In this document: positions 4,596 to 19,640 of the stretch, piece after piece
Layout: each line of letters opens with the position of its first letter
Numbering within the stretch: position 1 is the stretch's first letter
IMG/VR virus record: IMGVR_UViG_3300033146_001159
Location: 1 to 30,693 of that record
Strand: one strand, 5' to 3'
DNA length: 30,693 nucleotides
Source: a virus
The notes under the pieces: model-generated
Databases searched by the model: none
Seen by the model: only the letters and a program-made list of their open reading frames with translations
What the model was told of the DNA's origin: nothing
Position numbers and translations under genes: made by a program

Positions 4596-4613
4596 TTTTA
4601 CATACCATCCTTT

Positions 4614-4775
4614 TTAATCTATCCATTGACCGGTTACATTTAATTTTCCATCAATAATACCTTGCTCAATTAATTCATCAATGCTAATATCTAATTCTAT
4701 AATAAATTTACGCCTATCATTATAACAGGTTTCTCCTTTTGTCTTCTTTAATGCGTATATCAAATACTCCAACAT
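4614..4775 (-). CDS. small hypothetical protein (53 aa)
   Basis: A short gene with the ribosome site GGAGATGTTATAG before ATG (4773-4775). It begins MLEYLIYALKKTKGE and ends NVTGQWID. Helical N-terminal half and acidic middle. It is the first protein gene after the tRNA-like RNA and could share the promoter at 5044-5072. Confidence 0.6.
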   Translation of the reverse strand: MLEYLIYALKKTKGETCYNDRRKFIIELDISIDELIEQGIIDGKLNVTGQWID

Positions 4776-4829
4776 CTATAACATCTCCTTTACAATTTTA
4801 ATCAATAAGCTATTCCTAATAATATTTTT

Positions 4830-4868
4830 GATAGATAATATGGTCTAATTTTCACCCAATTATCTATC
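4830..4868 (-). other. stem-loop between tRNA-like gene and 4614-4775
   Basis: GATAGATAA (4830-4838) and TTATCTATC (4860-4868) form a perfect 9-bp stem, extended inside by TGG/CCA around an AT-rich loop. No T-run follows on the minus strand, so it looks like an RNA hairpin (processing, stability or attenuation) between the tRNA-like RNA and the next gene. The rest of 4776-4935 shows nothing else I can support. Confidence 0.45.
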
Positions 4869-4935
4869 GGATTAATAAAAGGAGTGTTACTATAAAGAAA
4901 GCAACTTTTATACGATAAATCTAATCATCATATAA

Positions 4936-5015
4936 AGGGTTATCACGGAATCGAACCATGCTAATTATCATTATATATATCAACTATTGATAACCAACCA
5001 CTAAGGATATAACCC
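4936..5015 (-). tRNA. atypical tRNA or tRNA-like RNA, anticodon uncertain
   Basis: On the minus strand there is a perfect 7-bp acceptor stem (GGGTTAT/ATAACCC) and a convincing T arm (CATGG-TTCGATT-CCGTG). The rest is irregular. The D arm closes with only two sure pairs (CC/GG around TTAGTGGTT), and position 8 is not U. Two folds compete for the middle: a class II form with loop AATAGTT (anticodon UAG, Leu, but A at position 33) and a long variable region, or a stem TTATC/GATAA enclosing 19 nt followed by a normal 4-nt variable loop. A promoter lies 30-57 bases upstream. No CCA is encoded. It may be a diverged tRNA or a tRNA-like decoy. Confidence 0.6.
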
Positions 5016-5043
5016 ATTTGTTTCAACTAAATATCACTAAACA

Positions 5044-5072
5044 AGTGTAACATATTTCAATTATTTTGTCAA
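5044..5072 (-). promoter_or_regulatory. sigma-A promoter for tRNA-like RNA
   Basis: On the minus strand: TTGACA (5067-5072), a 17-base spacer, then TACACT (5044-5049). The predicted RNA start is near 5037, about 20 bases before the tRNA-like RNA at 5015. It would also drive the small genes downstream. Confidence 0.75.
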
Positions 5073-5099
5073 CACCTATTATAAATATTTCAGTAATAT

Positions 5100-5444
5100 T
5101 TACAAATACTCTGCTAAATCTTTTTCCAATAGTCTTATTTTAGCACCTAACTTTCTATTTTCTCTAACTTTAATCTTTAATCTAATATCATGTAACAAAT
5201 CTAACAATGGAATACCATTAGTTTCTAACATATCTGAATTAATATCAAATTTATTATTTGCTAACATTACATTAATTAATATATCATATTTTCTCAAATC
5301 TACTAATGACATAATTTGAACATGTAAATCTAATCCATTGTAAGTAAATTTACCACTTGTTTTAAACTCTAGTATAGATTCATCAATGATTTTTGATCTT
5401 AATTCATCTAGCTTCTCTTGTAATATTATATCTCTATGTATCAT
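5100..5444 (-). CDS. hypothetical protein (114 aa)
   Basis: Not recognised. Almost entirely helical, with heptad-like leucine/isoleucine spacing at residues 3-28 and 85-114 and a short strand segment at 'KFTYNGLDLHVQI'. Probably a small oligomeric protein. RBS AAGAAAGGAATAAATA before ATG. It follows the lysis genes and precedes the tRNA promoter. Confidence 0.68.
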   Translation of the reverse strand: MIHRDIILQEKLDELRSKIIDESILEFKTSGKFTYNGLDLHVQIMSLVDLRKYDILINVMLANNKFDINSDMLETNGIPLLDLLHDIRLKIKVRENRKLGAKIRLLEKDLAEYL

Positions 5445-5475
5445 TATTTATTCCTTTCTTATTCACGTATAATCC

Positions 5476-6219
5476 CTACTTTCTAAACTGTACACCATCA
5501 ACCTCTATTACTAATTCATATTTATTAAACCATGATTGCATACTATCTGATGTATAATCTTTATTATTAAATATCCATGCACCACCCGATAAATCATATC
5601 TAAGTGCTTCGGCAACAGCAGCTATTGTGTCATCAGATGGTGTTTTATATAGATTCAATGATGGAGAAAACTGCAATCCACCATTAGTATCAAATATAAC
5701 ATCATTAAGATTGTTAGGATATCTAATATCATTTACTCTATTAATAATTATACTAGCCACCATTAGTCTACATAGTTGAGATTCACCACCTGCCTCATGT
5801 TGTACGAGCATACATAGTGTTTCAAATTCACTTTGGGTATAGTTTATCCGACTTTGATTTAAATTCTCTGTACGGACTTGTGATAGCGTTATATTAATAC
5901 TTTTTAAGTCAGTTTCTATAGTATTTATATTATTTATTAAACTTTCAAATTCCGACTTAATATTTATAATTTCAACTTCTAAATCAGAATTTGAATAGAT
6001 CAATGTCGATTGAGCATAATTCATATCATCTATCCTGTTAACTGTTTCGACTTGATATTCATTTATTTTATTATTTAATGAATATAATTTTATAATGAGT
6101 ATAAACAATATTACAAATATTATCAATACACCACCAAAAATGGTTAATACTCCATCATATAAATCTATATTGTTTAATTTTTCTGACATCCATTTTTTGA
6201 TTAAATTTATTGTTTTCAA
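5476..6219 (-). CDS. membrane-anchored SleB-like cell wall hydrolase (247 aa)
   Basis: The C-terminal half (about residues 128-225) matches the Hydrolase_2/SleB family, peptidoglycan-cleaving enzymes known from spore cortex lysis. It has an 'LVQHEAGGES' block with the expected catalytic Glu (E142), 'VASIIINRV' and 'FSPSLNL.....P'. The N-terminus carries one strong transmembrane helix (about residues 22-46), followed by a coiled-coil stretch (47-120), so the enzyme would be tethered to the membrane with the catalytic part outside. The start is TTG at 6217-6219, supported by GGAGG upstream. It sits directly after the amidase and holin candidate, completing a lysis cassette with two different wall enzymes. 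It could alternatively be a spanin-like or virion protein. Confidence 0.85.
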   Translation of the reverse strand: MKTINLIKKWMSEKLNNIDLYDGVLTIFGGVLIIFVILFILIIKLYSLNNKINEYQVETVNRIDDMNYAQSTLIYSNSDLEVEIINIKSEFESLINNINTIETDLKSINITLSQVRTENLNQSRINYTQSEFETLCMLVQHEAGGESQLCRLMVASIIINRVNDIRYPNNLNDVIFDTNGGLQFSPSLNLYKTPSDDTIAAVAEALRYDLSGGAWIFNNKDYTSDSMQSWFNKYELVIEVDGVQFRK

Positions 6220-6234
6220 AATATAAAGCCTCCA

Positions 6235-6834
6235 TTAATCTAAGAAACCTAATCTATCCAACATGACAACACATTCTTCTCTAGACATATTTTCTTGTGG
6301 ATTAGTTCCATCTGTTATGTTTTTTTTGATAGCTTTCTCCCATGATTCTTTTGCCCATTCACTCGGCGTTGTAATATTATTTTCGTTTATCATATCTTCC
6401 TCGCATTCTATAAATCTATCAATTTTAACATTCATTCCCGGGCATGTTTTAGGATTATCATCTCTATGGAATCTCCATATAAGCTTTCTTCCTAACATTT
6501 TTTCAGCCTCTAATTTGCATTTAACAACTTCTCTAATCATATCTTGTGATGGTATATGTATATCAAAATCACCAACCATACAATGTGATAATGCTATTGT
6601 ATTCATTTCGTTGTCATTACAATGCGCTCCTTTATATTTTACATCTCTCCCAATATATGTAATCAATTTACCATTATCATATTCAGTGCCTTTATTATAA
6701 GCTACAGTACCGAATTTTCGTACATTTATGTGATAATTTATAACTCCTTGCCAATTATTTGAATTAGGATTGTCTACCGTTGCTGAATGATGTACCATAT
6801 AATACTTAATTTTATCTAGTGATCTTGTTTTCAT
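6235..6834 (-). CDS. endolysin: N-acetylmuramoyl-L-alanine amidase (199 aa)
   Basis: An Amidase_2 (PGRP-like) domain covers about residues 5-140. Zinc ligands are visible as H15 (in VHHSAT), H123 (in RFHRDDNP) and C131 (in KTCPG). The last 45 residues (SEWAKESWEKAI...DGT.P....REECVVMLDRLG) form one copy of an SLH-like wall-binding motif often found at the end of endolysins of Gram-positive phages. There is no signal peptide, so export depends on a holin. The ATG lies one base after the stop of the upstream membrane protein gene (6836-7102), and the ribosome site AAGGAGAAAATTTAAA is inside that gene, so the two are coupled. Cleaves the bond between muramic acid and L-alanine during host lysis. 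Confidence 0.93.
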   Translation of the reverse strand: MKTRSLDKIKYYMVHHSATVDNPNSNNWQGVINYHINVRKFGTVAYNKGTEYDNGKLITYIGRDVKYKGAHCNDNEMNTIALSHCMVGDFDIHIPSQDMIREVVKCKLEAEKMLGRKLIWRFHRDDNPKTCPGMNVKIDRFIECEEDMINENNITTPSEWAKESWEKAIKKNITDGTNPQENMSREECVVMLDRLGFLD

Positions 6835-6835
6835 T

Positions 6836-7102
6836 TTAAATTTTCTCCTTAGTTAGTTTATTTTTGATAAATGATACTAATATACTTATTAATGTAATTA
6901 CATTTACTATAGGTACACAACATATTAACCCTACTATAAATGTATCTAATCTAAGTTGATTAATACCATCTACACTACCTTTATGTATTGTCACCATTTC
7001 ATCTACTGATTGCCCATCGAACATATAATCGTACATAATTCTAATATTTGCTAGTGTTACTAAAATGTAAATCACCCAAATTACAAATTGAATATTATTC
7101 AT
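6836..7102 (-). CDS. holin candidate, two-helix membrane protein (88 aa)
   Basis: Two hydrophobic segments (about residues 5-25 and 53-80) flank a polar loop, and the C-terminus is lysine-rich (KNKLTKEKI), as in class II holins. The gene is coupled to the endolysin gene (stop and start one base apart). Family is not recognised, so the holin call rests on size, topology and place. Its ATG comes two bases after the end of the upstream coiled-coil frame (7105-7400). Confidence 0.7.
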   Translation of the reverse strand: MNNIQFVIWVIYILVTLANIRIMYDYMFDGQSVDEMVTIHKGSVDGINQLRLDTFIVGLICCVPIVNVITLISILVSFIKNKLTKEKI

Positions 7103-7104
7103 AT

Positions 7105-7400
7105 TTAATTCTCCAACCTTTCTAATCTATTAGTTAAATCCATTATTTTATCCTTAATCAATTCTATTTCAATATCCTTTTTAGATTTTTCTGTTAAGAT
7201 TTTTGCTTTTCAAATTTAGATGACAAATTATCATAAAAATCATCTAAGTTAAAATAGCCGTCTTTAATATTATAGATATTACTCTCCTTAAGACGAGTAA
7301 TCTTTGATTCAATACATTTCATTTTCTCATCCCATTTACTCTTACTCCTCCAATTACTCATGCTTACCATATTCTCCAATCTATTAATCATCTTCTTCAA
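7105..7400 (-). pseudogene. coiled-coil protein gene split by a frameshift in an A5 run
   Basis: The first frame runs from a TTG at 7400 (alternative ATG at 7391) to TAA at 7194-7196 and gives 68 residues, mostly helical and highly charged. The minus-one frame entered at the A5 run (plus-strand T5 at 7200-7204) continues with about 30 more helical charged residues ending RLERLEN and stops at 7105-7107, two bases before the holin candidate's ATG. One extra A would give a single 99-residue protein filling the gap perfectly. Either the gene is broken, the base is a sequencing error, or ribosomes or polymerase slip here. Its start overlaps the end of the 7384-7539 gene. Function unknown; position suggests a lysis-module or antiholin-type role. 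Confidence 0.6.
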
Positions 7401-7539
7401 TAGTTACCATAACATCCTCTGTAGCATCAATTATAGCCGTTTCAATATCTTCCAATGTAGTACTGGCATCAGTTTCTAATATTTCAATAACTAACATATA
7501 AATCGTATTCCATATGTTAATATTGATAGGTTTCTTCAT
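7384..7539 (-). CDS. small acidic protein (51 aa)
   Basis: A short gene with the ribosome site AGAAAGGAGACATCATAT before ATG (7537-7539). It begins MKKPININIWNTIYMLVIEI and has an acidic C-terminal half (ETDASTTLEDIE...TIEEDD). Its end overlaps the start of the 7105-7400 frame. No known family; small acidic phage proteins are sometimes inhibitors, but nothing here proves that. Confidence 0.62.
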   Translation of the reverse strand: MKKPININIWNTIYMLVIEILETDASTTLEDIETAIIDATEDVMVTIEEDD

Positions 7540-7574
7540 ATATGATGTCTCCTTTCTAATAGTTAATATGTTTA

Positions 7575-8561
7575 CTAGTTTTTTGTAAAAATCATAATAT
7601 CCTCTGAATTATCATTATGTCCTCCATTAGAATTTGTTCTTTTAATATTCTTTAGAGAGTGACATTTTAAGTACTTAAAACCAATATCTTCACATATTTT
7701 ACGAGTATCTTGGACTAAGTGATATTTATCATAGTCATTAATATTGACCGCTAAATGCCCATCATTTATAAGGTATTTATAAATATTTTTCATAGTTCCT
7801 TTTAAATACCCATTCAACCATTCATTATATGAAACTCCACTCTTATATGATTGCTTATCTCCTACTCTATAATCTTCTAATGCGAAATACGGTGGACTAC
7901 TAAACGCAAATCCTATTTTATTCTCCCATTCGCTAATAAATTCTTCGCTTCCTTGACAACGAATATCATAAAATGTGTTTGTTTTGTTTAATTTATTATA
8001 AGCATTTGCATATATTTTTAATCTTTTTACTAAAATATCATTAGGATCTGTACCATAATAATTAACCTTCTCTTTTAATGCACCTGTTAATCTAACTCCC
8101 CAACCACATGAATAGTCATAATAATGATTATTTATATTATATAAATCAAAAAGTTCTCTCATAGTCTTTAAAGGGAAATTACTTGGCTTTGCGGCAATTC
8201 CTTTTCCACCTAATCTTAATGCAGTTTCTATTTTTTTAATATCTGTTAATGTATCTGGATATACTTTCTTATTGTAAGCAGATTTAGCATAGAAGAATCT
8301 GATTAGATCATCACATTCAAAAACCTCTTCTATAGACCATTTAGAATGATACATTTTTACCTTTGCCATAATATCTTTAAAAAAGTAATTAGTAATATGA
8401 TTTATCTTAACTCCCCCATTATGAACTTTTTTAATTTGTTCTTTTAACAACTCTTTACTCGGTCTTTTATAATATTGTTCTCTCAACTCTTGGCATTTTT
8501 CTTCTGATAACTCACAATAATGCTTTGTGTTAACAATTTGTCCTTTGTATTCAATCTTCAC
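7575..8561 (-). CDS. DNA methyltransferase-like protein (328 aa)
   Basis: A SAM-dependent methyltransferase core lies in residues 145-325. The motif I-like segment is YDYSCGWG (148-155), followed by an acidic 'YYGTDPND' (motif II) and SSPPYF (221-226), the SPPY-type catalytic motif IV seen in N4-cytosine/N6-adenine DNA methyltransferases. The order is motif I before motif IV. The N-terminal 140 residues are helical and may recognise DNA. No restriction partner is visible, so it is probably an orphan enzyme that protects or marks phage DNA. The start is GTG at 8559-8561 with AAAGGAGATATT just upstream. Its own promoter is at 8603-8631. Target sequence cannot be told. Confidence 0.82.
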   Translation of the reverse strand: MKIEYKGQIVNTKHYCELSEEKCQELREQYYKRPSKELLKEQIKKVHNGGVKINHITNYFFKDIMAKVKMYHSKWSIEEVFECDDLIRFFYAKSAYNKKVYPDTLTDIKKIETALRLGGKGIAAKPSNFPLKTMRELFDLYNINNHYYDYSCGWGVRLTGALKEKVNYYGTDPNDILVKRLKIYANAYNKLNKTNTFYDIRCQGSEEFISEWENKIGFAFSSPPYFALEDYRVGDKQSYKSGVSYNEWLNGYLKGTMKNIYKYLINDGHLAVNINDYDKYHLVQDTRKICEDIGFKYLKCHSLKNIKRTNSNGGHNDNSEDIMIFTKN

Positions 8562-8602
8562 AATATCTCCTTTTATGTTTTATTATTTGTATTACTTTTA
8601 CT

Positions 8603-8631
8603 ATACTACTACATGTTATATACTTTGTCAA
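8603..8631 (-). promoter_or_regulatory. sigma-A promoter for methyltransferase gene
   Basis: On the minus strand: TTGACA (8626-8631), a 17-base spacer, then TAGTAT (8603-8608). It lies 42 bases upstream of the GTG start and likely also serves the lysis genes downstream. Confidence 0.7.
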
Positions 8632-8648
8632 TGGTTAATTTATAATTA

Positions 8649-9764
8649 TTATTCCATTCCATCCATTAATTCACTCATCATCTTATTTGTATCAACTTTT
8701 AAAGATATTCCTCTAAGTTCTTTTAGTTCTAATTTAGACTTAAACTTCTTAAACTTCCACGTATCTACTACGGTATGATTTGATTCTCTTGTTAATTCCA
8801 TTTTTCTAATTGTTAATTCCTCTAGTAATTCTTCCTGTTTGCTAACTAACCCTTTTTCACTATCCTTCTTCTTTACTAATGAGTTTATTTTACCTATTAG
8901 TTTAGAAAACTCTTCTGTATGATGTTGTTGTTTAACCTTAAAACCTTTCTCTCTTTTTAATTCTCTAGCCTTATCACCTGCTATTGCAATACTCTTTATA
9001 CTCTTATCATAATTACCTTTATCTACTATACTGTATATGTTATTTAACATCATATATATGTTATTTGCCCCTTTATACATTCCGGGATGACCAACTAAAA
9101 CTAGCTCTAATTCATCTAATATATCTAATGATTTCTTAATAGTTTTAGATGAAACTCCTAATATATCTGTCATTTTACTATATGAAAGAAAGCATATATT
9201 CTCCATTTTAGACAAATCATTTGATGGATTTATAGGCTTATCTCCACTCTTTGTGAATGATTTCAATAAACATAATGTGTTAAATATTTTAAGTTTATCC
9301 ATTAATAAAATATCATTATCACTTAAAAAAACCTTATAATAATCATCTAATGTTACTGTAAAATACTTAGCTTTTAATTTAGAATTATCTACATTTATCC
9401 TACATGTATCATTTAATTTCATACCGTTTTTAGGAATGTTTATCTCACTTATATGCTTATATTTTAGTATTATTATTAAGTTATTAATTAGGATATTTTT
9501 ATCATATGAACCACTTTTTGACATATCCATTTCATCTAATAACATGCCTAAAGTGAATGTAATATCTCCATTAGAATTAGCCTTATTTATCAATATAAAG
9601 TATAATCTCATCAATCTATTATCTATACTTTTCACTATTTCTAACTCATCAATTTTATCATTATTTTTACTATATTCACCTAATATCAAATCATTAGGAT
9701 ATTTCACATTTATATAGTTTTCTTTGTAAGATTCACCTATTATTTTGATTGTATTTTTATCCAT
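8649..9764 (-). CDS. winged-helix DNA-binding protein, putative replication initiator (371 aa)
   Basis: Two winged-helix-like regions are visible. One is near residues 45-110 ('RLYFILINKANSNG', LGMLLDEM), similar to the first WH domain of Rep_3/RepE-type initiators. The second, clearer helix-turn-helix is at about 193-240 ('LSYSKMTDILGVSSKTIKKSLDILDELELV' region) with a following wing. Residues 265-335 are a charged coiled-coil. The gene points away from a non-coding region with repeats at 9851-10076, the layout of an initiator next to its iterons. ATG is preceded by AAAAGGAGAGC and by a strong promoter at 9808-9836. It could instead be an early transcription regulator that binds the same repeats. 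Confidence 0.68.
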   Translation of the reverse strand: MDKNTIKIIGESYKENYINVKYPNDLILGEYSKNNDKIDELEIVKSIDNRLMRLYFILINKANSNGDITFTLGMLLDEMDMSKSGSYDKNILINNLIIILKYKHISEINIPKNGMKLNDTCRINVDNSKLKAKYFTVTLDDYYKVFLSDNDILLMDKLKIFNTLCLLKSFTKSGDKPINPSNDLSKMENICFLSYSKMTDILGVSSKTIKKSLDILDELELVLVGHPGMYKGANNIYMMLNNIYSIVDKGNYDKSIKSIAIAGDKARELKREKGFKVKQQHHTEEFSKLIGKINSLVKKKDSEKGLVSKQEELLEELTIRKMELTRESNHTVVDTWKFKKFKSKLELKELRGISLKVDTNKMMSELMDGME

Positions 9765-9850: not shown

Positions 9851-9876
9851 TTTCCTACACACACAATCTAGGTGTA
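9851..9876 (-). repeat. inverted, diverged copy of the 37-bp repeat core
   Basis: Read on the minus strand this is TACACCT-AG-ATTGTGTGT-GTAG-GAAA, matching the core of the two direct copies except in the AG and GTAG blocks. The changes keep a short dyad: CCTA...TAGG here versus CCTG...CAGG in the other copies. Confidence 0.75.
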
Positions 9877-9935: not shown

Positions 9936-9972
9936 TTTAAAATCCTACACCTGAATTGTGTGTCAGGGAAAG
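9936..9972 (+). repeat. 37-bp direct repeat, copy 1
   Basis: Identical over 37 bases to 9991-10027 (starts TTTAAAATCCTACACCTG, ends GTCAGGGAAAG). Contains the inverted half-sites CCTG and CAGG ten bases apart. The repeat period is 55 bases, close to five helical turns, so both copies would face the same side of the DNA. Confidence 0.9.
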
Positions 9973-9990: not shown

Positions 9991-10027
9991 TTTAAAATCC
10001 TACACCTGAATTGTGTGTCAGGGAAAG
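9991..10027 (+). repeat. 37-bp direct repeat, copy 2
   Basis: Perfect second copy of 9936-9972, separated by 18 unique bases (9973-9990). Only two direct copies exist, so this is not a CRISPR array. Confidence 0.9.
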
Positions 10028-10136: not shown

Positions 10137-10166
10137 TTGTAAAAAGGGTATAAAAAATGGTATAAT
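10137..10166 (+). promoter_or_regulatory. promoter for zinc-ribbon/RNA polymerase genes
   Basis: TTGTAA (10137-10142), an 18-base spacer, then a perfect TATAAT (10161-10166). It is the only clear sigma-A-like promoter found on the plus strand and would let the host polymerase start synthesis of the phage RNA polymerase. Confidence 0.7.
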
Positions 10167-10215: not shown

Positions 10216-10476
10216 ATGGATTATAAGAATAAGATTAATACACTGAATCAAGATAGTATGATTTCACCTAATTCAAATATTATTGAGAACTCTATTGAAG
10301 ATATTACAGATGAATTTATAAGTCAATCGTATGAAGATATTTATGAGTTAGTTTTCTTAGATGGAAATAAATATAAACCAGATATGTATGGTTGTATAAA
10401 TTGTGGAAATGTAAAAGGTCATGATGGAAATTTTAGATGTTCAACATGTGGTGAAATATTAAATGATTTTGATTAA
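10216..10476 (+). CDS. zinc-ribbon protein upstream of RNA polymerase (86 aa)
   Basis: The C-terminal third holds a single zinc ribbon, CINC (about 60-63) and CSTC (about 75-78), with a typical 'KGHDGNFRCSTCGEIL' knuckle. The N-terminal 50 residues are acidic and likely disordered. The ribosome site is AGAAAGGAATATTAGA. It is the first gene of the plus-strand operon and precedes the single-chain RNA polymerase. Zinc ribbons are common in polymerase subunits and transcription factors, so a helper role is tempting but unproven. Confidence 0.75.
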   Translation: MDYKNKINTLNQDSMISPNSNIIENSIEDITDEFISQSYEDIYELVFLDGNKYKPDMYGCINCGNVKGHDGNFRCSTCGEILNDFD

Positions 10477-10485
10477 TTAATTATC

Positions 10486-10513
10486 AAAATTAGATGGTTA
10501 AAAATTAGATGGT
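10486..10513 (+). repeat. 13-bp tandem repeat AAAATTAGATGGT in polymerase leader
   Basis: Two exact copies (10486-10498 and 10501-10513, period 15) lie just before the polymerase gene. A related AAAATTTAGATGG (10185-10197) sits in the leader of the gene before it. This could be an operator or an mRNA binding site for autoregulation. Confidence 0.6.
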
Positions 10514-10552
10514 ATAAATTAAATATTAGAAAGTTAAAATATTAGGAAGGTT

Positions 10553-13282
10553 GTGTTTGATAAATTGATAAAAGATAAAATAGAAAATATTTATATAAAT
10601 TCAATTGAGTCATCAGATTTATATGAGTATATGCAAGGTAGACCTATAAAGAATAATTACATAGGTATGATTCCACATTCTTTAGAAAGTATAAAGTTAA
10701 GACAATTGGGATTAAAGATTTACGAAGATAGAACAGGTAAGAACAAATCGAATGATATTATAAATGTTAAATTTAATACATCTGTAAAACACTTTGAAGA
10801 TATAATTAGTAAATATGATATTTATGATATGGTTCATGGTATGGCGATTAAAATAAATGAACTTGAAAGTTGTAAGACTAAATCAGCAATTAAACATTTA
10901 GAGTATACAATTAGCAATATGGAAAATATGATTAATTATATAAAATTGATTAGTTCAGAAAAAAGAGATAAAATTAAATCGAATGATCTTAGAATTGATT
11001 TTTATAAAAATGGTTTTAACTTTAAAGGAACTGAATATCAAGTTTACAAAAGAACAAGTGCAAAGAGTAGAACAGGTGAATGTTTATTTATAAAAAAGCA
11101 ATTAAGAAATAAATCTATTAAGTGGGCTAGACTAGGAATGAATTTAGATAATATGGATTTAGATAGTGGAGTAGATTATCCTAGTCTGTTAGCATATGAA
11201 TCATTAGTGGGTTCATCAATAATCGGTAGAGTTGAAATTGATACCAAGAATATATTCATAGTTAGTGATATAGTTTCAAAGTTTAATACCAACACAAGTG
11301 TGATAACTAATAACTCTAGTGGAACATTATCTAGTGTATCAAATAATGATTATGAAATTATATCTGATTTGTTCGATGGCGAAGCATTGTTAGATGAATC
11401 TTACTTTGTAGGAAGTGCTAAAGGAAAAGGAAGTATGTTGCTAAGACATCATATGTTTAAATCATGTGCTTTTAATTCAAAGGTTCAGAAATTCTTAATA
11501 GATAGTTGTCCTAGAGATATTGAATATAACGAATGGCAGCTTGATGATATGTTTGGAAATAAAGTTTATGCTAAAGATATTATGTTAATAACTACACCTA
11601 ATTCTTTAAAGGCATTAAAATTTTATAAACGTAAGAAAACTAAAAAGTTGATGTATGAACATTGGTGTAGAAAAGTAAATTTAGATAATAACTTATTTGG
11701 TGTTTGTAAATTTGAGAAGAAGAGTAAACGAGGTTATCATGATGATGGTCAGATATTAAACAGGACTAGTTATCAAATGTTGAATAGTATTCCATTTACG
11801 AAAGACGATATTAAAGAGTTGTCAACTTTGGAATTAAATTACATAGATAATCTAAAAAATGATATAAACGTATATATGGAATTTTTAGAAGAAAACAAGA
11901 ATGATATAAATTCCAATGAAATGTTAATTAATCTTTATAGAGTTAATAATGATTTGATGAATACCGAAAGTTTTAAATTAAAAAGAGCAAGAGATATAAA
12001 GAGTCATATTAATATTATCAAACGGGGTAAGATTCGTATGAAAGGTGATTATCTTACAATATGTCAAAATCCTAAAGAGTTGTTATATCATACAATTAAT
12101 AAATTACCTGTAGATAGAAATGTATTAGACTTTGATAAATGGAAATCTGAAATTGAATTAATTGATAATCAAGCACATATAATATTACATGACATGAATC
12201 GTGAATATACATGTTTTAGAAATCCCCATACAAGTCCTAGTAATGTTTTGATATTAGAAAATAAAGAAAGTCTATTTATAACCAAATATATGAATCCTAG
12301 TAATAATATAATTTATACTAACGGTATAGGAATTGAAATATCTAGGATATTATCCGGAGCTGATATGGATAGTGATACTGTCTTAGTATTAGATAATCAG
12401 AAATTATTAGAAGTGTCTAAAAAGTGTTATGGAAATTATAATGTTTGTGATAATAACGTATCGGCTGTAAAAGTTAATTATAAAGTTAATAGTGATGACA
12501 TGGCTAAGATTGATGTTATATTATCAACTAGCCAAACTAATATAGGCAGAGTTGTTAATATAGGTCAGATAGCTATGAGTTTATATTGGGATATAATTAA
12601 TACAAGTGGAGATAGTGATAAAGCCAAAGAGATATTGAAACAAGTTGATATATGCACTGTACTGAGTGAGATAGCTATTGATATGGCTAAAAAGTTGTAT
12701 GAGATAGATTTTACAAAACAGATTAAAGAGATCGAAGATAATTTAGGATTGAATGGTGTTAAACCTAAATTTTTCTCATTCATAAGTAGGGCAAATATTA
12801 AGAGTGAGAATTTAAAACAGTTTGAATGTTCAATGGATTATCTTTATGACATTACAGAAAATATAAAACGTGCTAAGGTTCAAACAAAGACTATTGATTT
12901 TTTAGACTTGTTGACGAAAAATGAATTAGTAGTGACTAGAAGAAGTATTAAACAGAAAAGTAGGATTGATGATATTGCTAGAGAGTTTTTGAGAAATAGA
13001 ACTAGGGCATATATAAACTATGATGTTGAATTTAAGTATGGTGTTGATATTATGAATTGTCAAGCACACTTATATGATTTATTAGATAATGCGAATATAC
13101 AATGTAAAAAACAAATGTCTAAGTATAAACTTTTAACTCATGCGATTAATCATGCTATTAAGAAAGTGTTAGTTGATGATACTAGAGGTAGATTAGATTT
13201 AACTACAGGATTGCTAACTTACTTAAAAGTATTATATGATATTGACAAGGATAAATTCTTAGATAATTTTAGATGGTTTTAA
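10553..13282 (+). CDS. YonO-like single-chain RNA polymerase (double-psi beta-barrel fold), 909 aa
   Basis: This looks like a member of the YonO/crAss-phage polymerase group, single proteins that carry both double-psi beta-barrels of multisubunit RNA polymerases. Evidence: a D-x-D-x-D metal motif at D604-M-D606-S-D608 within 'SGADMDSDTVLV', placed as the second-barrel active site; a preceding 'FRNP.....NVLIL' block (555-568) as in the RdRP/YonO family; and an upstream 'DGEALLDESYF...GKGSMLLRHHMFK' block (275-303) whose G/K/R residues fit the first barrel. Length is close to that of SPbeta YonO (about 900 residues), a DNA-dependent RNA polymerase. The usual DxDGD has Ser for Gly. The start is GTG with AGGAAGG 2-5 bases upstream. 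Probably transcribes the late genes downstream (inference). No homology search was possible. Confidence 0.82.
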   Translation: MFDKLIKDKIENIYINSIESSDLYEYMQGRPIKNNYIGMIPHSLESIKLRQLGLKIYEDRTGKNKSNDIINVKFNTSVKHFEDIISKYDIYDMVHGMAIKINELESCKTKSAIKHLEYTISNMENMINYIKLISSEKRDKIKSNDLRIDFYKNGFNFKGTEYQVYKRTSAKSRTGECLFIKKQLRNKSIKWARLGMNLDNMDLDSGVDYPSLLAYESLVGSSIIGRVEIDTKNIFIVSDIVSKFNTNTSVITNNSSGTLSSVSNNDYEIISDLFDGEALLDESYFVGSAKGKGSMLLRHHMFKSCAFNSKVQKFLIDSCPRDIEYNEWQLDDMFGNKVYAKDIMLITTPNSLKALKFYKRKKTKKLMYEHWCRKVNLDNNLFGVCKFEKKSKRGYHDDGQILNRTSYQMLNSIPFTKDDIKELSTLELNYIDNLKNDINVYMEFLEENKNDINSNEMLINLYRVNNDLMNTESFKLKRARDIKSHINIIKRGKIRMKGDYLTICQNPKELLYHTINKLPVDRNVLDFDKWKSEIELIDNQAHIILHDMNREYTCFRNPHTSPSNVLILENKESLFITKYMNPSNNIIYTNGIGIEISRILSGADMDSDTVLVLDNQKLLEVSKKCYGNYNVCDNNVSAVKVNYKVNSDDMAKIDVILSTSQTNIGRVVNIGQIAMSLYWDIINTSGDSDKAKEILKQVDICTVLSEIAIDMAKKLYEIDFTKQIKEIEDNLGLNGVKPKFFSFISRANIKSENLKQFECSMDYLYDITENIKRAKVQTKTIDFLDLLTKNELVVTRRSIKQKSRIDDIAREFLRNRTRAYINYDVEFKYGVDIMNCQAHLYDLLDNANIQCKKQMSKYKLLTHAINHAIKKVLVDDTRGRLDLTTGLLTYLKVLYDIDKDKFLDNFRWF

Positions 13283-13331
13283 ATTAGTGGTTATATTATA
13301 AAAGTTCCAAAAAATAGCATGTTTTAGTAAA

Positions 13332-13361
13332 AAGGGGGTATGTCTATATGATGTACCCCTT
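13332..13361 (+). terminator. putative terminator after the RNA polymerase gene
   Basis: AAGGGGGTA (13332-13340) pairs with TACCCCTT (13354-13361) with one bulged G, followed by ATTCTATAT and preceded by an A-run. On the plus strand the U-tract is weak. On the minus strand the stem is followed by TTTTTACT, so it might work better in that direction. It separates the polymerase gene from the structured RNA at 13395-13543. Confidence 0.45.
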
Positions 13362-13394
13362 ATTCTATATAGGTTTAACTATATAGATACTAGG

Positions 13395-13543
13395 ATAATA
13401 TAGACAGTATGAAAACAGTTGATTATTTATAAGTGAAAGCACAGATAATATTACAACAATTACGAGCGTCCCGAGAATCCTAAAGGGTAGAATTAATTAA
13501 GTTAGTAATACGAGTGTTAGTAATTAGTACTGTCTATAATTAT
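13395..13543 (+). ncRNA. structured leader RNA upstream of the beta-CASP RNase gene
   Basis: A long closing helix is formed by TATAGACAGTA (13399-13409) and TACTGTCTATA (13528-13538), 11 perfect pairs extended by ATAA/TTAT with one bulge. Inside are a hairpin arm at 13418-13457 (GTTG/CAAC, ATTATTT/AGATAAT, then GTG-AAAG-CAC) and an AATTAC/GTAATT helix (13458-13463 with 13520-13525) that encloses a CCC/GGG pairing and a repeated GTTAGTAAT. No coding frame explains this. I do not recognise a known riboswitch, ribozyme or group I core. It lies about 100 bases before the RNase gene. The rest of 13283-13641 shows nothing else I can support. Confidence 0.55.
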
Positions 13544-13689
13544 ATATTAGATTTAAATTAAGCTAAGACACATAACAAGATATAACAAGATGGGGAAATA
13601 TTCGTCAATAATATCTGACATAACTAAAGGGGCTGAAATCAATATCTAGTCGCAAACATAACAAAAAGAACAAAGCTAGAATCAAGTTT

Positions 13690-15093
13690 GTGGGGTTATC
13701 ATCGAAAGACGTTACAGGTTCATCACACTTAATAACTTACAAAAATGAACAAGTGTTATTAGAATGTGGAATGTATCAGTGTAAAGATAAGATTAAACAG
13801 TATTCAACAAATAATAGGAATTTTGATTTTAAACCTAAAGAATTGACAAGTGTTATTATTTTACACTTTCATATCGATCATTTAGGTTTATTACCTAGAC
13901 TTTATCAAGATGGTTGTACAGCACCTATATATACTACAGTAGGTGGCAAAGAATATTTAAGGATAACATTTGAAGATAGTTTGAAGATTATGGAAAAGGA
14001 TTTAGAGTATATATCTAAAACTACAGGGAAAGTGGCTAAACCTATATATACTAAAGAGTTTGTTGATATAACATTAGATAAGATTGTTGAAGTAGATTTT
14101 AATACTATATTTCAGATCAATGAATATATGAGTATTAATTTGTTACACTCATATCATGCGTTAAATTCGGCACACTTAGAATTATATATTAAAGACAAGA
14201 AAGCTAATTATCAACGTAAATTATATTACACAAGTGACATAGGAAATATAGGAATTAGGGATAAATCGTTTTTAGAGAAGTTTCAAGGAGTCGTACAAGC
14301 CGATTCTGCCATTTTAGAGTCTACTTACGCACAAAGTGACCCAAACGCAATAAAAGTCCACAGAAAGGACGATAACGAAGCGATAAGGGGTGTTATTGAT
14401 TCCACAAGGTATGATAATAACAACAATGGTAATATAATCATAGCAAGTTTCGCTTTTCACCGTATGCAAGAGTTAATATTATGTATATACGATATGTACG
14501 GAAAAGATAAGGAATTTGATATGGATGTTATAGTTGATTCACCATTAGGCGTTAAGATAACTGAATACTTTGTTAAGTTTGCAAATAAGAAAGATAGTGT
14601 TAAATTACAAAAAGCTATTAATTGGTCTAATTTACATTTAGTCAGTGATTGGCAAGATTCTGAAAAATATAGAAATGATGGTAAGTCTAAAATTGTAATA
14701 GCTGCTAGTGGGTTTATGGAGAGTGGTAGGATTATATCATGGTTAAAAAGTTGTTTGCCAGACAAAGATACATATTTTGTATTTGTGGGATATAGTAGTC
14801 CGGATTCATTAGCTAGTAAAATTAAATCTAAAAAGTATGACCGTGTGAAGATAAATGGCGAAGAATATGATAATAAGGCAAGTGTATTAAATTTATTAAG
14901 TTTTTCAAGTCATATACAGCATAATGATATGGTCAAGTATTATTCTGATATGAATGTTAGAAATGTATATTTAGTTCACGGAAATATGAATAGACGAATA
15001 GAGTTTAAAAAAACTTTAGAAACCGAGTATAGACGTAAAAACAAATCTACAAAGGTATGGATAGGTGAATATGGTTTAGAGGTTGATATATAA
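13690..15093 (+). CDS. beta-CASP metallo-beta-lactamase RNase (467 aa or longer)
   Basis: This is an RNA-processing nuclease of the CPSF/RNase J-like beta-CASP class. Metallo-beta-lactamase motifs: H59-F-H61-I-D63-H64, the 'NSAHLEL' block with H162 and 'TSDIG' with D182. Beta-CASP motifs: 'AILESTY' (E209), 'ASGFMESGRI' and a late 'VYLVHGN' histidine. The N-terminal VTGSSHL..ECGMYQ is the standard family opening. The GTG at 13690 is the first usual start codon, but it has no ribosome site and would cut the first beta strand. The frame is open upstream to 13624 with an AAAGGGG site at 13626-13632 and an AUA codon at 13642, giving a lysine-rich extension of 16 residues. Likely acts on phage or host RNA in the cytoplasm. 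Confidence 0.9.
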   Translation: MGLSSKDVTGSSHLITYKNEQVLLECGMYQCKDKIKQYSTNNRNFDFKPKELTSVIILHFHIDHLGLLPRLYQDGCTAPIYTTVGGKEYLRITFEDSLKIMEKDLEYISKTTGKVAKPIYTKEFVDITLDKIVEVDFNTIFQINEYMSINLLHSYHALNSAHLELYIKDKKANYQRKLYYTSDIGNIGIRDKSFLEKFQGVVQADSAILESTYAQSDPNAIKVHRKDDNEAIRGVIDSTRYDNNNNGNIIIASFAFHRMQELILCIYDMYGKDKEFDMDVIVDSPLGVKITEYFVKFANKKDSVKLQKAINWSNLHLVSDWQDSEKYRNDGKSKIVIAASGFMESGRIISWLKSCLPDKDTYFVFVGYSSPDSLASKIKSKKYDRVKINGEEYDNKASVLNLLSFSSHIQHNDMVKYYSDMNVRNVYLVHGNMNRRIEFKKTLETEYRRKNKSTKVWIGEYGLEVDI

Positions 15094-15133
15094 TTATACA
15101 AGTCATTTATTCAAAAATGGAAGGATATAAAAA

Positions 15134-16408
15134 ATGAGCATTAAACAAGATATAAATTTTGATAATTATGACAGAGAATCTTTAAACAAAATAAATAAAA
15201 GACGTCAAGAGTCAGATTGTTTTATCAATGTATTTAATAATTTAACAGATATTGAAGTGTCTGAAACAGAGGCTAGAAAAGAATTAAGAGGCATTGAAAA
15301 CTTCTTAAATAGAAAGCTTGAAATATCGGGTGAAAATAATAAAGAGAATATAGTTAAGTATAGTGAATCCATTGAAATAAATAGTAATGGTGTACAAGTT
15401 AGTAATAAACTAATTGAAATGAACGAAGAACAGTTGAAAGACCCTGTATTTATGCTAAATGCACATGGGTACAGTGAAAAAAGTTTTGAATTGTTAAATG
15501 TCAAGAATAACTTCTGGAATGTATATTCTAAAAAAGATGGTGTTCAGACATTATATTCAAGTAAAATTACTGTTAAGCCTATTATACAAGAGTTTGATAT
15601 TGAGTGGGCTAAAGAGATATTTGAAGAATTGCCTAGTTTAAAACCGGTTAAAAAATATATTGACAAAGTGCATAAATCAATAATAGAAATTCAATATGCA
15701 GATTTACATATAGGTTTACAAGGTTGCGAATATGAAGAAGAATTGAATGATATGACAGATAGAATTATATCTAAATTTAAACATGCTGATATATTCTTAA
15801 TTCCCATGGGACAAGATTTATTGAATAGTAATCACACTGTTAATTCAGCTAGTGTAACTGTTAAAGGAACTATCGTGGAATCCAATATGTCATATAGTGA
15901 AATGTTTAAAAGTGGATTAAGGGTTTATTGTCACATAGTAGACAGAATACTCGAACAAACTGATGCAGTAATTGATATGCCATATATATTAGGGAATCAT
16001 GATAAACATAGTGCTTTCGGAGTTTATCAATCGCTAATGCAAAGGTATAGGAATAATCCTAATATTAAATTTGATGATAGTATGAAACCTAGAAAATATA
16101 GGGGTTATGGTGTTAATGGAATAGGATTAGGACATGGTCAATCAGAGGGTAAGAGAATAACAGGATTGTTTCAAACAGAAGCATCTAGCATATTTGCTAA
16201 CTCTAAATTTGTTGAGTTCCATTTATCTCACTTACATTCTGAAAAATCATTTAGTGAAAATGGAATAACATTTAGAAGGCTACCTACTGTGAACAAGCCA
16301 GATGAATGGCATAATGAAAAAGGTTTTGTAGGTGCAACAAATAGAATACAAGTATTTGAATATGATTATGAAATAGGCTTAGAAAGTATTAATTATTTCA
16401 CATTGTAA
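15134..16408 (+). CDS. SbcD/Mre11-like phage metallophosphoesterase (424 aa)
   Basis: The C-terminal part (about 180-424) carries a calcineurin-type phosphoesterase core: ADLHIG (D190, H192), GQD (226-228, in place of the common GD), GNHD (287-290), GHG near 340 and 'LSHLHSE' near 368. The N-terminal 170 residues are helical and charged and are not recognised; phage homologues often have a DNA-contact domain there. The start is supported by ATGGAAGGATATAAAAA upstream. It lies between the RNase and packaging genes, so it may process DNA before packaging or act on RNA ends. It has no SbcC-like partner in view. Confidence 0.85.
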   Translation: MSIKQDINFDNYDRESLNKINKRRQESDCFINVFNNLTDIEVSETEARKELRGIENFLNRKLEISGENNKENIVKYSESIEINSNGVQVSNKLIEMNEEQLKDPVFMLNAHGYSEKSFELLNVKNNFWNVYSKKDGVQTLYSSKITVKPIIQEFDIEWAKEIFEELPSLKPVKKYIDKVHKSIIEIQYADLHIGLQGCEYEEELNDMTDRIISKFKHADIFLIPMGQDLLNSNHTVNSASVTVKGTIVESNMSYSEMFKSGLRVYCHIVDRILEQTDAVIDMPYILGNHDKHSAFGVYQSLMQRYRNNPNIKFDDSMKPRKYRGYGVNGIGLGHGQSEGKRITGLFQTEASSIFANSKFVEFHLSHLHSEKSFSENGITFRRLPTVNKPDEWHNEKGFVGATNRIQVFEYDYEIGLESINYFTL

Positions 16409-16420
16409 TATTATAGTTAG

Positions 16421-16461
16421 ACAGCATTATAACTACTGATACATAGTGGCTATGGTGCTGT
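16421..16461 (+). other. 11-bp RNA hairpin between phosphoesterase and packaging genes
   Basis: ACAGCATTATA (16421-16431) pairs with TATGGTGCTGT (16451-16461): nine Watson-Crick pairs and two G-U wobbles, with an inner ACTA/TAGT stem. There is no T-run after it, so it is not a classic terminator. The wobble pairs suggest selection on RNA rather than DNA. Confidence 0.5.
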
Positions 16462-16540
16462 TAATAGTACAATATTTCAAACAATATATAAGTAAGTGCG
16501 AATTAAAATGGTTTAAACAAAAATGGAAGGTGAAAAAGAT

Positions 16541-17809
16541 ATGACTAAGAAAAAAGTAACGCCGAATCCTAATCTTACTAAAGGTGGGAATGTAGCTAAT
16601 AGTGATAAAAATTCAGCAAATATAAAGATGATAAAAGATATTAGAGCAAAGAAAACTTCTGAACGTATAGGATCTGGTGTAGGGAATATTGAAAAATTCA
16701 ATCCAGATACTATGTTTATTACTTGTGCGCATTGTAACAGAACTTTGTCAGCGAAGAATAGAAATTATTTTAAAGCTAATTCTAAATCTATATTTAGTGG
16801 CTTAGGCTATGTTCCTATTTGTGATAGATGTATAAGTGAGTTATTCTTAGAGTATTATTATTTACATGATAGAGATATTTATAGGGCAGTATATTTTACA
16901 TGTAGAAAAATGGATATTATGTATTCAGCATCAGCCGTTGATGGTGTGCTAAAAAGAGAAAATAATAATTTAGATAGTACTATGGGTGTTTACATCTCAA
17001 TAGTTAATGGTGCAGTGTTAAGGAAAAAAGTAGGTAACTTTGACGATTCAGATACTTTAAATCTAACCGATGAAAATTCGCTAGAAGGTTTAATGCGTAA
17101 AAATCAAGGCAAATTTAAAGAACGTGATAAATATACTGTCCAAGAAAAAAGAGCAAAAAAAGATATTATAAATTTATTAGGAATTAATCCATTTGAAACC
17201 ATGGAAAGTGAATTAAAACCAGCCGAAGTGGGTCAAATGTTTATGGAATTGGTTGTATATGTAGAAGATGAGGAAATCGTAGGAAGTCCATTTAAAATGA
17301 GTGTTGTTTTACAAGTTATAAACAACAATAGTCAGATTAGAAGATTTGATGATTACCTGTCCATATTAGCTAGTGATTTAAAAAGTTTTGAACTTAATCA
17401 AGCACTTGTTACTAGTATGACAAACAGTAAAAATAAATTAATAGAAACTAACACTAAAATTGTTAGAGAGAATAAATGGTTATCTGCTGAAAATTCTGGT
17501 GGAACTAGATTAGGTGCTATGATGAAAAAGTATGCTAGATTAGATTTTGAAGAGGTTGAAGTTGATTATTACAAACAGCGTGAGGCTAAAGCGTTTAAAC
17601 AAGTATTTGATGAATCTAACAAGAGTATATTGAACAGCATTAACTTCACAGAAGATACTGAAAGAGAATTGTTTAGAATACAAAAAGATTTGATATTTTC
17701 AAAAGATAAGGAGATAGCAAATCAGTTTGAAACAAATAGAGAATTAGCTGTAGCCATAGTCGAATATAAGAAAAAAATTATAAGCCTCGGTGGTGAGATA
17801 GATGAGTAG
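16541..17809 (+). CDS. zinc-finger protein, possible small terminase-associated protein (422 aa)
   Basis: The frame opens at 16523, but GGAAGGTG lies 8 bases before the ATG at 16541, so I start there (MTKKKVTPNPNL). The N-terminal 45 residues are lysine-rich and probably disordered. A CAHC...CDRC zinc finger follows at about 62-97, then a mostly helical body with a coiled-coil region near 270-420. It overlaps the large terminase gene by 8 bases. Position directly before TerL and a DNA-binding-like zinc finger suggest a small terminase or packaging recognition subunit, but its length is well above the usual 150-200 residues and the family is not recognised. Confidence 0.62.
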   Translation: MTKKKVTPNPNLTKGGNVANSDKNSANIKMIKDIRAKKTSERIGSGVGNIEKFNPDTMFITCAHCNRTLSAKNRNYFKANSKSIFSGLGYVPICDRCISELFLEYYYLHDRDIYRAVYFTCRKMDIMYSASAVDGVLKRENNNLDSTMGVYISIVNGAVLRKKVGNFDDSDTLNLTDENSLEGLMRKNQGKFKERDKYTVQEKRAKKDIINLLGINPFETMESELKPAEVGQMFMELVVYVEDEEIVGSPFKMSVVLQVINNNSQIRRFDDYLSILASDLKSFELNQALVTSMTNSKNKLIETNTKIVRENKWLSAENSGGTRLGAMMKKYARLDFEEVEVDYYKQREAKAFKQVFDESNKSILNSINFTEDTERELFRIQKDLIFSKDKEIANQFETNRELAVAIVEYKKKIISLGGEIDE

Positions 17810-19640
17810 AAAAATTACTAAAGAATTATTAACTAAATCACAATATGATAATTATTTAGATAATTCATATACTATTAATTTTTGGAGAGAAAATCCAGCA
17901 TTAGCTATTAGAGAACTATTAGGGATACAATTATTGGATTTCCAAAAGTTAATAGTTGAAATGTTTTTTAAAGCAGAATTTATAGTATTAGCTATGTGTA
18001 GAAATAGTGGTAAATCTTTATTATCAGCTATTATAATTATGATAACTGTATTACTGTATCCGGAAGAAGAAGCATGGATAATTAGTGCTACAGGAGTTCA
18101 ATCTAAGAAGTTATTTTCTTACGTTGAAGATTTATCATTAGGAAATTTAGAGAACAAGTTTGGTGAATTGCCCGATTTATTTTCTAAGGAAGTTAAGACT
18201 AGTTTTCAATCACCTACAGGATTTAGTCATAACTCAACAGGATATAAATTTCAAGTTGATGGCAACAATTCTAAAGTAGGTACATTGAACTCAAATGTAA
18301 ACAACTTACGTTCTCAAAGAAGTACATTAAATGTGGTTGATGAGGCTGGATTTTGTGTTGAAGAATTATTTGCATCAGTTGCAAGTTATTTGACAACTAA
18401 CTCTGACTTTAAAACAGATGCAGAAGATGTATTTTTTGATATCAGAACTAAGAAAAAGAATAAGCCTAATAGAGCATTATATATAAGTTCTGTATCTGAT
18501 AAGACTTCTGAATTTTATAAAAAGTATAGGGAATATGCTATCAGAATGTTTGCTGGTGATACAAGATATTTTGTACTAGATTTGAATATTGAAATACCTT
18601 TACATCCCACTATGAACGGTAGAAAATATACCCCATTGTTATCTCAATCAGTAGTTGATACTGAAATGGCTACAAATAAAGTTAAAGCCATGAGAGAGTA
18701 TTATAATGTGTGGGATCAAGATTCCGATGACCAGATTATCAAATCGAACGTTATAGAGAGAAATTCTACTTTTCAATTACCAGAAGTTGCACCAATTAAA
18801 GGTGCTAAATATGGTCTATTTTATGACCCTGCACAATCAGCAGATAACTCTATCGTATTAGTTGGTAAAACAGAATACGATGACAAAATAGGATGGCATG
18901 GTAGTGTTGCTAATATGAGTAATTTTAAAGATTTAAAAGATACAAGTGTTAAGAATAGACAGATGTTATATCCAGATCAAGTTGACGAATTAAGGAAATT
19001 ATTGGTTAAATATAATGGAGATGGAGCAGAGTACGAAAACGTACAAACAATGATGATAGATAGTGGTTCTGGTGGTGGTGGACTGTTATATGCAGGTACA
19101 CTATTATTATACTTTAAAGATGCACATACGGGCGATTTACACAGAGGTATTATTGATGACGAATACTTTGCAGAAAAAGTATATGATTACCCTAATGCTT
19201 ATCCATTATTATCTATGATAGAACCTAGTAAATTTAGAAATAAAATGGTTCAAGAATTAATAGATTTATTAGATTTGAATTTGATTAAATTTCCAAAAGA
19301 ATATAATGGAAGTGGTCACGTTGATTTAGAGTCTGTTGATGAAAAAGGCGAATCTACGATACAAAGACGTGTATTAACAGATGAAGAACAGTTAGCACTT
19401 ATTAACATTGATTTGTGTAAAACTGAATGTAAAGTTATACACAAATACAAGACAAGTTCGGGTAAATATATTTATAAAGTAAGGGAAGATTTATCAAGAG
19501 ATTTTCATGATGATAGGTTTTACACATTACTTATGTTTGCACATCATATACATATGTTAAGGAATGATGACACTATGAAAAATGGTATGCAAAAAGAAGA
19601 AAAAGATGATACTATATTGAGTTTATGCACTACAAAATAA
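17802..19640 (+). CDS. terL: terminase large subunit (612 aa)
   Basis: This is the DNA-packaging motor with ATPase and nuclease domains. Walker A is C66-RNSGKS, Walker B is 'TLNVVDE' ending D180-E181. The RNase H-like nuclease shows D342 ('YDPAQSADNS'), D420 ('MMIDSGSGGGG') and D570-D571 ('DFHDDRFYTL'). Full length for the family. Start ATG overlaps the upstream gene by 8 bases (translational coupling). Works with the portal encoded next to load the capsid. Confidence 0.96.
   Translation: MSRKITKELLTKSQYDNYLDNSYTINFWRENPALAIRELLGIQLLDFQKLIVEMFFKAEFIVLAMCRNSGKSLLSAIIIMITVLLYPEEEAWIISATGVQSKKLFSYVEDLSLGNLENKFGELPDLFSKEVKTSFQSPTGFSHNSTGYKFQVDGNNSKVGTLNSNVNNLRSQRSTLNVVDEAGFCVEELFASVASYLTTNSDFKTDAEDVFFDIRTKKKNKPNRALYISSVSDKTSEFYKKYREYAIRMFAGDTRYFVLDLNIEIPLHPTMNGRKYTPLLSQSVVDTEMATNKVKAMREYYNVWDQDSDDQIIKSNVIERNSTFQLPEVAPIKGAKYGLFYDPAQSADNSIVLVGKTEYDDKIGWHGSVANMSNFKDLKDTSVKNRQMLYPDQVDELRKLLVKYNGDGAEYENVQTMMIDSGSGGGGLLYAGTLLLYFKDAHTGDLHRGIIDDEYFAEKVYDYPNAYPLLSMIEPSKFRNKMVQELIDLLDLNLIKFPKEYNGSGHVDLESVDEKGESTIQRRVLTDEEQLALINIDLCKTECKVIHKYKTSSGKYIYKVREDLSRDFHDDRFYTLLMFAHHIHMLRNDDTMKNGMQKEEKDDTILSLCTTK

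Follow-up and report, generated by a model that had tools for sequence, protein, structure and literature searches.

A YonO-related, probable single-chain RNA polymerase with a serine-variant catalytic motif, and its beta-CASP nuclease neighbour, in a phage genome record

The polymerase locus

The virus record IMGVR_UViG_3300033146_001159 of IMG/VR (positions 1 to 30,693; 'the window' hereafter, meaning this whole stretch of 30,693 bases) is divided into a leftward gene block (approximately 117-9764) and a rightward gene block (10216-29993). Our subject is the second gene of the rightward block, an open reading frame (ORF) on the plus strand that runs without interruption from a GTG start at 10553 to a stop ending at 13282. 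Its coordinates and translation confirm the description given in a first-pass annotation, which had noted a 909-residue protein carrying DMDSD and had proposed that it is a single-chain RNA polymerase resembling YonO of phage SPbeta. The motif occupies residues 604-608 (12362-12376, plus strand), with Ser607 encoded by AGT. The same annotation had the gene opening the plus-strand late region, but an ORF of 86 amino acids (CINCGNVKGHDGNFRCSTC; 10216-10476, plus strand) comes first. This small ORF is zinc-ribbon-like, with weak matches to Pfam zinc-ribbon families (E 0.04-0.09, under the cut-offs), and a similar motif also precedes the polymerase of the closest relative, locus L007.

A sigma-70-like promoter-like site with a TG-extended -10 element (TTGTAA-18-TATAAT; 10137-10166, plus strand), recognized by consensus only with 10 of 12 positions matching, precedes these two genes. 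Just 3' of the polymerase is a terminator-like hairpin (13333-13361, plus strand) with a 12-pair stem and a weak T run; it is the only such site between 9700 and 20000, where 1.8 +/- 1.4 are expected, and this number is not significant. Downstream of the polymerase lie genes for a beta-CASP nuclease, a metallophosphoesterase, a protein of PHROG 3314, the large terminase, the portal protein and a protein of PHROG 3313, in that order.

Kinship with YonO and predicted fold

The 909-residue protein matches PHROG 8308 over residues 12-905 (E 9e-145). Although this family is nameless in PHROGs, it can be equated with the YonO family because SPbeta YonO scores 1220 bits against the same profile. A single direct BLASTP comparison with YonO gives E 2e-7 at approximately 21% identity, and hhalign, when used to compare a profile of 17 DxDSD proteins with a YonO/Perkons profile, returns a probability of 99.4% (E 8.5e-22, 512 columns) and pairs DMDSD with the DNDGD of YonO. 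The size is also near that of YonO, as had been remarked earlier (909 versus 839 amino acids). No T7-type single-subunit RNA polymerase family turned up in the Pfam, PHROG and NCBIfam searches, none of which was dedicated to that type.

SPbeta YonO carries a C-terminal zinc ribbon, and a comparable ribbon is present in only two of 132 full-length proteins (L064 and L065). We considered whether this domain has generally moved to an upstream gene, but such a rule is unsupported: an ORF of the CxxC...CxxC type lies upstream in only 7 of the 132 loci, and among these only that of L007 is clearly like the one in the window.

An AlphaFold (AF2) model built from an alignment of 42 proteins, taken from the window and the fetched loci, has a mean predicted local distance difference test score (pLDDT) of 88.3 and a predicted template modelling score (pTM) of 0.83. 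All 19 Foldseek matches in the PDB with E up to 1e-3 are to RDR2 or QDE-1. Structure alignment with VIA-align likewise ranks RDR2 (Z 23, 645 residues aligned, root-mean-square deviation 6.6) and QDE-1 (Z 18, 633 residues, 4.3) above P74 gp62 and P32 gp64 (Z 15), phi14:2 (Z 11) and P23-45 gp96 (Z 10), and the RDR2/QDE-1 alignment spans model residues 9-909. Through this whole-chain match to two-barrel enzymes, the protein is predicted to hold two double-psi barrels in one chain. The structural comparison called for by the first-pass annotation thus found two-barrel polymerases as anticipated, but the model sits nearer to RDR2 and QDE-1 (Z ~17-23) than to the crAss-like phage protein gp66 (Z 11) that had been suggested as a reference.

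Gene order shared with SPbeta

The order of genes in SPbeta is yonO, yonN (HU), yonK, yonJ, yonG, yonF, yonE and yonD, and PHROGs 3314, 2/15503, 2739 and 3313 occur in equal order in the window, which puts both polymerases just before the late module. The window's metallophosphoesterase/exonuclease (15134-16408; PHROG 704, E 9e-51) takes the place of yonJ, although the SPbeta gene belongs to a different family, PHROG 284 ('exonuclease'). The counterparts of yonG (16523-17809; PHROG 3314 in both phages), of yonF, the large terminase (17802-19640; PHROG 2 and PHROG 15503 in both), of yonE, the portal protein (19665-21296; PHROG 2739 in both), and of yonD (21321-22874; PHROG 3313 in both) follow, all on the plus strand.

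According to excerpts of the published YonO study (PMC5467207), YonO is a processive DNA-dependent RNA polymerase in vitro that strongly favours DNA over RNA as a template and is inactive when its Asp triad is mutated. The same excerpts state that, when yonO is deleted, the late cluster of 37 genes stays silent after induction, that the late genes apparently form one operon transcribed from upstream of yonK, and that the stretch between yonN and yonK contains a YonO start site and an unannotated non-coding RNA. In our searches, the Rfam DUF3800-VIII RNA (RF03075) was located between yonN and yonK (16027-16092 of the SPbeta locus, L064). The proposal of a YonO-type single-chain polymerase is therefore borne out by sequence, predicted fold and a gene order held in common with SPbeta, and from the role of YonO together with this gene order we infer a late-transcription role for the window enzyme.

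The promoter argument that accompanied the proposal does not survive. It had been claimed that the late region has no good host-type promoters and that late transcription would hence be independent of the host enzyme. We find 62 sigma-70-like sites between 9700 and 20000 (77.9 +/- 8.1 expected in shuffles) and 72 between 20000 and 30693 (64.4 +/- 8.1 expected). Because such sites are about as frequent as in shuffled sequence, a supposed absence of host promoters has no weight as evidence for a phage polymerase, and we reject it. The polymerase operon itself has a good host-type promoter-like site, which would leave the phage host-dependent at first. This arrangement fits the logic of SPbeta, in which the host makes the phage enzyme and the phage enzyme makes the late genes.

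The Asp triad and its serine variant

A DxDxD motif is poor evidence when considered by itself, and we rejected it as such, given that 36% of 5000 shuffles of the polymerase (8.1% Asp) hold one and that the protein has a second, unconserved instance (DIDKD at residue 896). DMDSD counts above chance because its Asp triad is conserved and the fold matches. D604, D606 and D608 are invariant in all 42 aligned proteins (alignment A3), and the triad is kept in 142 of 142 loci with a readable motif. Other residues invariant in all 42 proteins include D275, G276, R298, K303, K353, K386, R556 and P558; some of the basic ones may correspond to lysines of the beta subunit.

The residue before the third Asp is usually Gly, which is near-standard in the DxDGD motif, but homologues of the window protein also show Ser, Val, Tyr or Ile. 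Relatives were collected by an IMG/VR scan with an alignment as query (57 loci), from genome contigs (80 kept of 159) and from GenBank phages; a scan of IMG/VR with the single polymerase protein as query found no relatives. The collection comprises 145 loci with a polymerase, window included, after the window's duplicate L006 was set aside; L062 has no polymerase at the threshold used. Among the 142 readable loci, 126 have Ser at this position, 13 have Gly, two Val and one Tyr. This count overstates Ser and is not a frequency, because the IMG/VR and genome scans relied on a peptide pattern for the motif region that permitted only Ser or Gly (the IMG/VR scan had a second pattern elsewhere). A motif-independent sample came from PHROG-profile searches, which had matches in 5 of the 398 genomes taken from one phylum and in 22 of the 391 from one class. 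When its residues were read by eye, counting once a gene that had been fetched twice, the 26 distinct readable genes gave Gly 18, Ser 7 and Ile 1. Two of the seven Ser genes come from centre genomes (G001 and G002) that had been picked for carrying Ser; without them Ser accounts for 5 of 24.

We thinned the 132 full-length rows by hand to 90 and built a tree from these under a simple model, using a quick search. It gathers on a single 78-row side 75 rows with Ser, two with Val and one with Gly (L011), and this side is separated by a branch of length 1.3 with a Shimodaira-Hasegawa-like approximate likelihood ratio (SH-aLRT) of 100; the rows outside this Ser clade are all Gly but one Tyr, and the residue pattern needs four changes. 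Serine codons in the 126 Ser loci are of the TCN class in 86 and the AGY class in 40, and the codon class must switch at least 15 times on the tree while the residue stays Ser. These two classes are not one step apart, with Thr or Cys serving as one-step bridges, and neither bridge residue occurs among the readable loci. Ser probably arose more than once, as suggested by its presence in L153, whose nearest relatives (L059 and L063) lie outside the Ser clade, and in L177, where the sequence context is similar. The ratio of nonsynonymous to synonymous change (dN/dS) for the polymerase is 0.05-0.17 in six of eight pairs tried, the other two being saturated. Our reading of these sequence patterns is that Ser is functional and does not represent decay.

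Several other forms of the gene were encountered. A DFDYD variant is present in L066 (the SPbeta-like Bacillus phage BUCT082) and a DFDID variant in L154. The polymerase gene is spread over two ORFs in several relatives (L003, L039, L015, L047, L051, L054 and L060); group I introns lie in the split genes of L003 (5276-5525) and L039 (9964-10293), and the L003 gene is split close to its catalytic motif by an HNH ORF. A search of the open-access literature for DxDSD, DFDSD or DYDSD found that the polymerase papers hold DXDXD only.

A recurrent beta-CASP nuclease neighbour

The gene immediately downstream (13690-15093, plus strand) encodes a metallo-beta-lactamase (MBL)/beta-CASP ribonuclease, similar to aCPSF1/FttA and Cas14, that is a possible partner of the polymerase. 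It matches Pfam Beta-Casp (E 4e-22) and RMMBL (E 1e-6) as well as the NCBIfam models for type VII Cas14 (E 1e-63) and aCPSF1 (E 8e-50), both below their curated cut-offs; for aCPSF1 (TIGR03675) the score is 169.7 bits against a cut-off of 580.2, so the protein is not assigned to FttA/aCPSF1 by score. The HxHxDH motif, H156, D183, E210, H408 and H430 are invariant in the four proteins of alignment A7, and D63, H64, H156, D183, E210, H408 and H430 in the eight proteins of alignment A6. These invariant His, Asp and Glu residues we take to be the MBL and beta-CASP catalytic residues.

Viewed from the polymerase, 4 of 145 loci (the window, L001, L007 and L021) have a beta-CASP gene downstream in the same orientation, which is a lower bound because many loci are short; in L086 the gene is upstream on the other strand. 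Viewed from the nuclease, the linkage is far tighter. An IMG/VR scan with alignment A7, which includes three proteins already adjoining a polymerase, yielded 16 loci, 13 of them with at least 3.7 kb of upstream sequence (a scan with the single beta-CASP protein as query found no relatives). A YonO-type polymerase is encoded upstream on the same strand in 12 of these 13, ending 0.7-2.9 kb before the nuclease. Duplicates are present (the polymerases of L196, L197 and L198 are identical, those of L202 and L205 are 92% identical, and that of L195 equals L021's), and their removal leaves about 9 of 10. The lone exception is L200, where a search of the 7 kb upstream at full sensitivity found no polymerase. 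Among GenBank records, ten were matched by beta-CASP: eight are phage fragments, none of them with a polymerase, the two closest (L183 and L184) having only 1.2-1.6 kb of upstream sequence, and one of the other two is the record of L001, with a polymerase.

The adjoining polymerases include DxDGD, DxDSD and DxDYD types. Co-inheritance of the two genes is unsupported (Mantel r -0.16, p 0.86, 12 pairs), and since the distances of polymerase and nuclease are uncorrelated, the pairing is not simply inherited. It seems instead that the pairing recurs or that the nuclease gets swapped, and that the nuclease goes with the polymerase, not the reverse. We found no open-access paper that is, by its title, about a phage beta-CASP and RNA polymerase pairing.

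In archaea, FttA (aCPSF1) mediates factor-dependent termination, as described in an excerpt of PMC11616081. The window nuclease has the MBL and beta-CASP core in common with FttA, its match covering positions 183-621 of the aCPSF1 model; the N-terminal part of that model is unmatched.

Structured RNAs and other features

For 119 relatives, at least 3.5 kb of sequence is available downstream of the polymerase, and 8 of them carry ROOL RNA (RF03087), a class whose function is unknown, on the polymerase strand and 2.27-2.48 kb beyond the polymerase stop: L003 (8424-9021), L032 (10162-10750), L039 (13322-13899), L050 (12951-13560), L094 (13028-13636), L099 (13023-13587), L017 and L105. Because L050 and L105 are identical in ROOL positions and polymerases, these represent seven distinct loci, most of them near tRNA genes. 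The fixed place of ROOL behind the polymerase suggests that the YonO-type enzyme makes this RNA. Genes resembling transfer-messenger RNA (tmRNA) lie in phage tRNA arrays of L050 (13889-14313) and L032 (10894-11320), where standard and permuted tmRNA models both score. Longer conserved blocks in the post-polymerase gaps of other loci were considered as late promoters and set aside, since they turned out to be tRNAs and ROOL RNA.

In the window, a tRNA-His gene is present at the left end (35-105, minus strand). Inside the rightward structural block, a HEARO RNA (27659-27894) precedes an ORF (27924-29162) whose product has RRXRR and HNH domains; together (27659-29162) they are an IscB-type nuclease with its RNA. 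The divergent region contains three copies of the repeat TACACCTgaATTGTGTGT, one of them inverted (9859-9876, minus; 9946-9963, plus; 10001-10018, plus). They are near a leftward promoter-like site (9836-9808) and are operator- or iteron-like.

Interpretation and alternative explanations

We consider it very probable that this phage protein of 909 residues is a DNA-dependent RNA polymerase with two barrels in one chain, akin in sequence to SPbeta YonO, encoded at the equivalent genomic position and dedicated to late genes. Host RNA polymerase would probably transcribe the zinc-ribbon and polymerase genes from the site at 10137-10166, and the hairpin at 13333-13361 may end this transcript. Transcription of the late module on the plus strand, which comprises the nuclease, terminase, portal and other structural genes, would then fall to the phage enzyme and probably begin within the gap at 13283-13690. 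The catalytic metals of the enzyme would be held by Asp604, Asp606 and Asp608, with Ser607 probably tuning catalysis rather than abolishing it because selection keeps Ser across a large clade.

Some observations weigh against this interpretation. Identity to YonO is only about 21%, the protein belongs to no Pfam or NCBIfam family above cut-off, and the C-terminal zinc ribbon of YonO is absent from it. The Gly before the third Asp, which is usual but not defining, is replaced by Ser607. Footprinting of post-polymerase gaps identified no late promoter, and the comparison of the window with L007 gave nothing among the ~60 pairs listed. Finally, the nearest solved folds are RNA-dependent enzymes, and relatives in GenBank (PQ571309 and OQ326496) are labelled 'RNA-dependent RNA polymerase'.

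These last two points lead to the alternative that the protein is an RNA-dependent RNA polymerase of the cellular (cRdRP-like) kind that acts on phage or host RNA. RDR2 and QDE-1 are its closest folds and the relative L004 matches Pfam RdRP (E 4.5e-19), but the GenBank labels are annotation and not tests, the window protein itself has no match to Pfam RdRP (PF05183) at E up to 1, and it is placed before structural genes, as is YonO. Furthermore, YonO, which shares its PHROG with the window protein, strongly favoured a DNA template in the excerpts cited above (PMC5467207). We therefore judge an RNA-templated enzyme to be decidedly unlikely.

Slightly less probable again, in our view, is a polymerase that does not serve late genes but acts early or travels in the virion, as happens in crAss-like phages. 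Two-barrel virion enzymes do exist, as phi14:2 and P23-45 gp96 attest, but the window polymerase has no virion-protein fusion in its mere 909 residues, its gene is placed and flanked like SPbeta yonO, and a host-type promoter-like site lies upstream. That the DxDSD proteins descend from polymerases but, inactive or altered, now serve another function, as the loss of a near-standard Gly and the long branch of the Ser clade (1.3 changes per column) could imply, is very improbable given the three Asp residues in every readable locus, the low dN/dS, the Gly row L011 inside the clade and the additional Ser residues of L153 and L177.

Starting from the late-gene polymerase that we favour, a bolder proposal can be framed by analogy, which we offer tentatively and regard as more apt to be wrong than right: the nuclease would cut the late transcript while it is still being made, and would free the polymerase or return it to use in the manner of archaeal FttA, and the Ser of DxDSD would be a selected catalytic change (affecting, for example, fidelity, pausing or the initiating nucleotide) and would set apart a second enzymatic type among two-barrel RNA polymerases. 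If true, bacterial phages would terminate transcripts or process their 3' ends in the archaeal style with a pair of proteins.

Two-barrel phage RNA polymerases for late genes have been known since 2017, and the Ser clade and the nuclease link appear to be new within the literature searched. To our knowledge, YonO is the only characterised member of its family, and this family has been suggested to be similar to the ancestral form of cellular RNA polymerases. A clade that has kept Ser in place of Gly despite no fewer than 15 switches of codon class amounts to a natural experiment on a motif that ranks among the most conserved in transcription. Likewise, the near-obligate beta-CASP pairing offers a concrete partner for this polymerase family.

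Comparison with known systems

The crAss-like phi14:2 RNA polymerase (6vr4) and P23-45 gp96 are two-barrel phage enzymes like that of the window, but they match it more weakly (Z 10-11) and are virion-borne, with much larger or fused chains. At 909 residues versus 2166 and with no fused domains in Pfam or PHROG, the window protein is not a giant chain of the crAss-like gp66 type, whose motif is presumably DFDID. RDR2 and QDE-1 match in fold over the whole chain at ~12% identity, and the family profile aligns GaDfDsD to the SGGDLDGD of plant RDR (E 0.002); these are RNA interference enzymes with Gly in the motif.

Among phages, the proteins named 'RNA-dependent RNA polymerase' in Thomasclavelia phage TR-TP1 and Enterocloster phage PMBT24 belong to PHROG 8308 and precede the terminase and portal genes, as in the window, but they carry DFDGD and fall outside the Ser clade. 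SPbeta YonO (NC_001884) agrees with the window protein in its PHROG, its single chain, its Asp triad and its setting between a leftward block on one side and the terminase-portal module on the other. It differs in having DNDGD and a C-terminal zinc ribbon, whereas the window polymerase has DMDSD, no ribbon within the protein, and a beta-CASP gene as its next neighbour.

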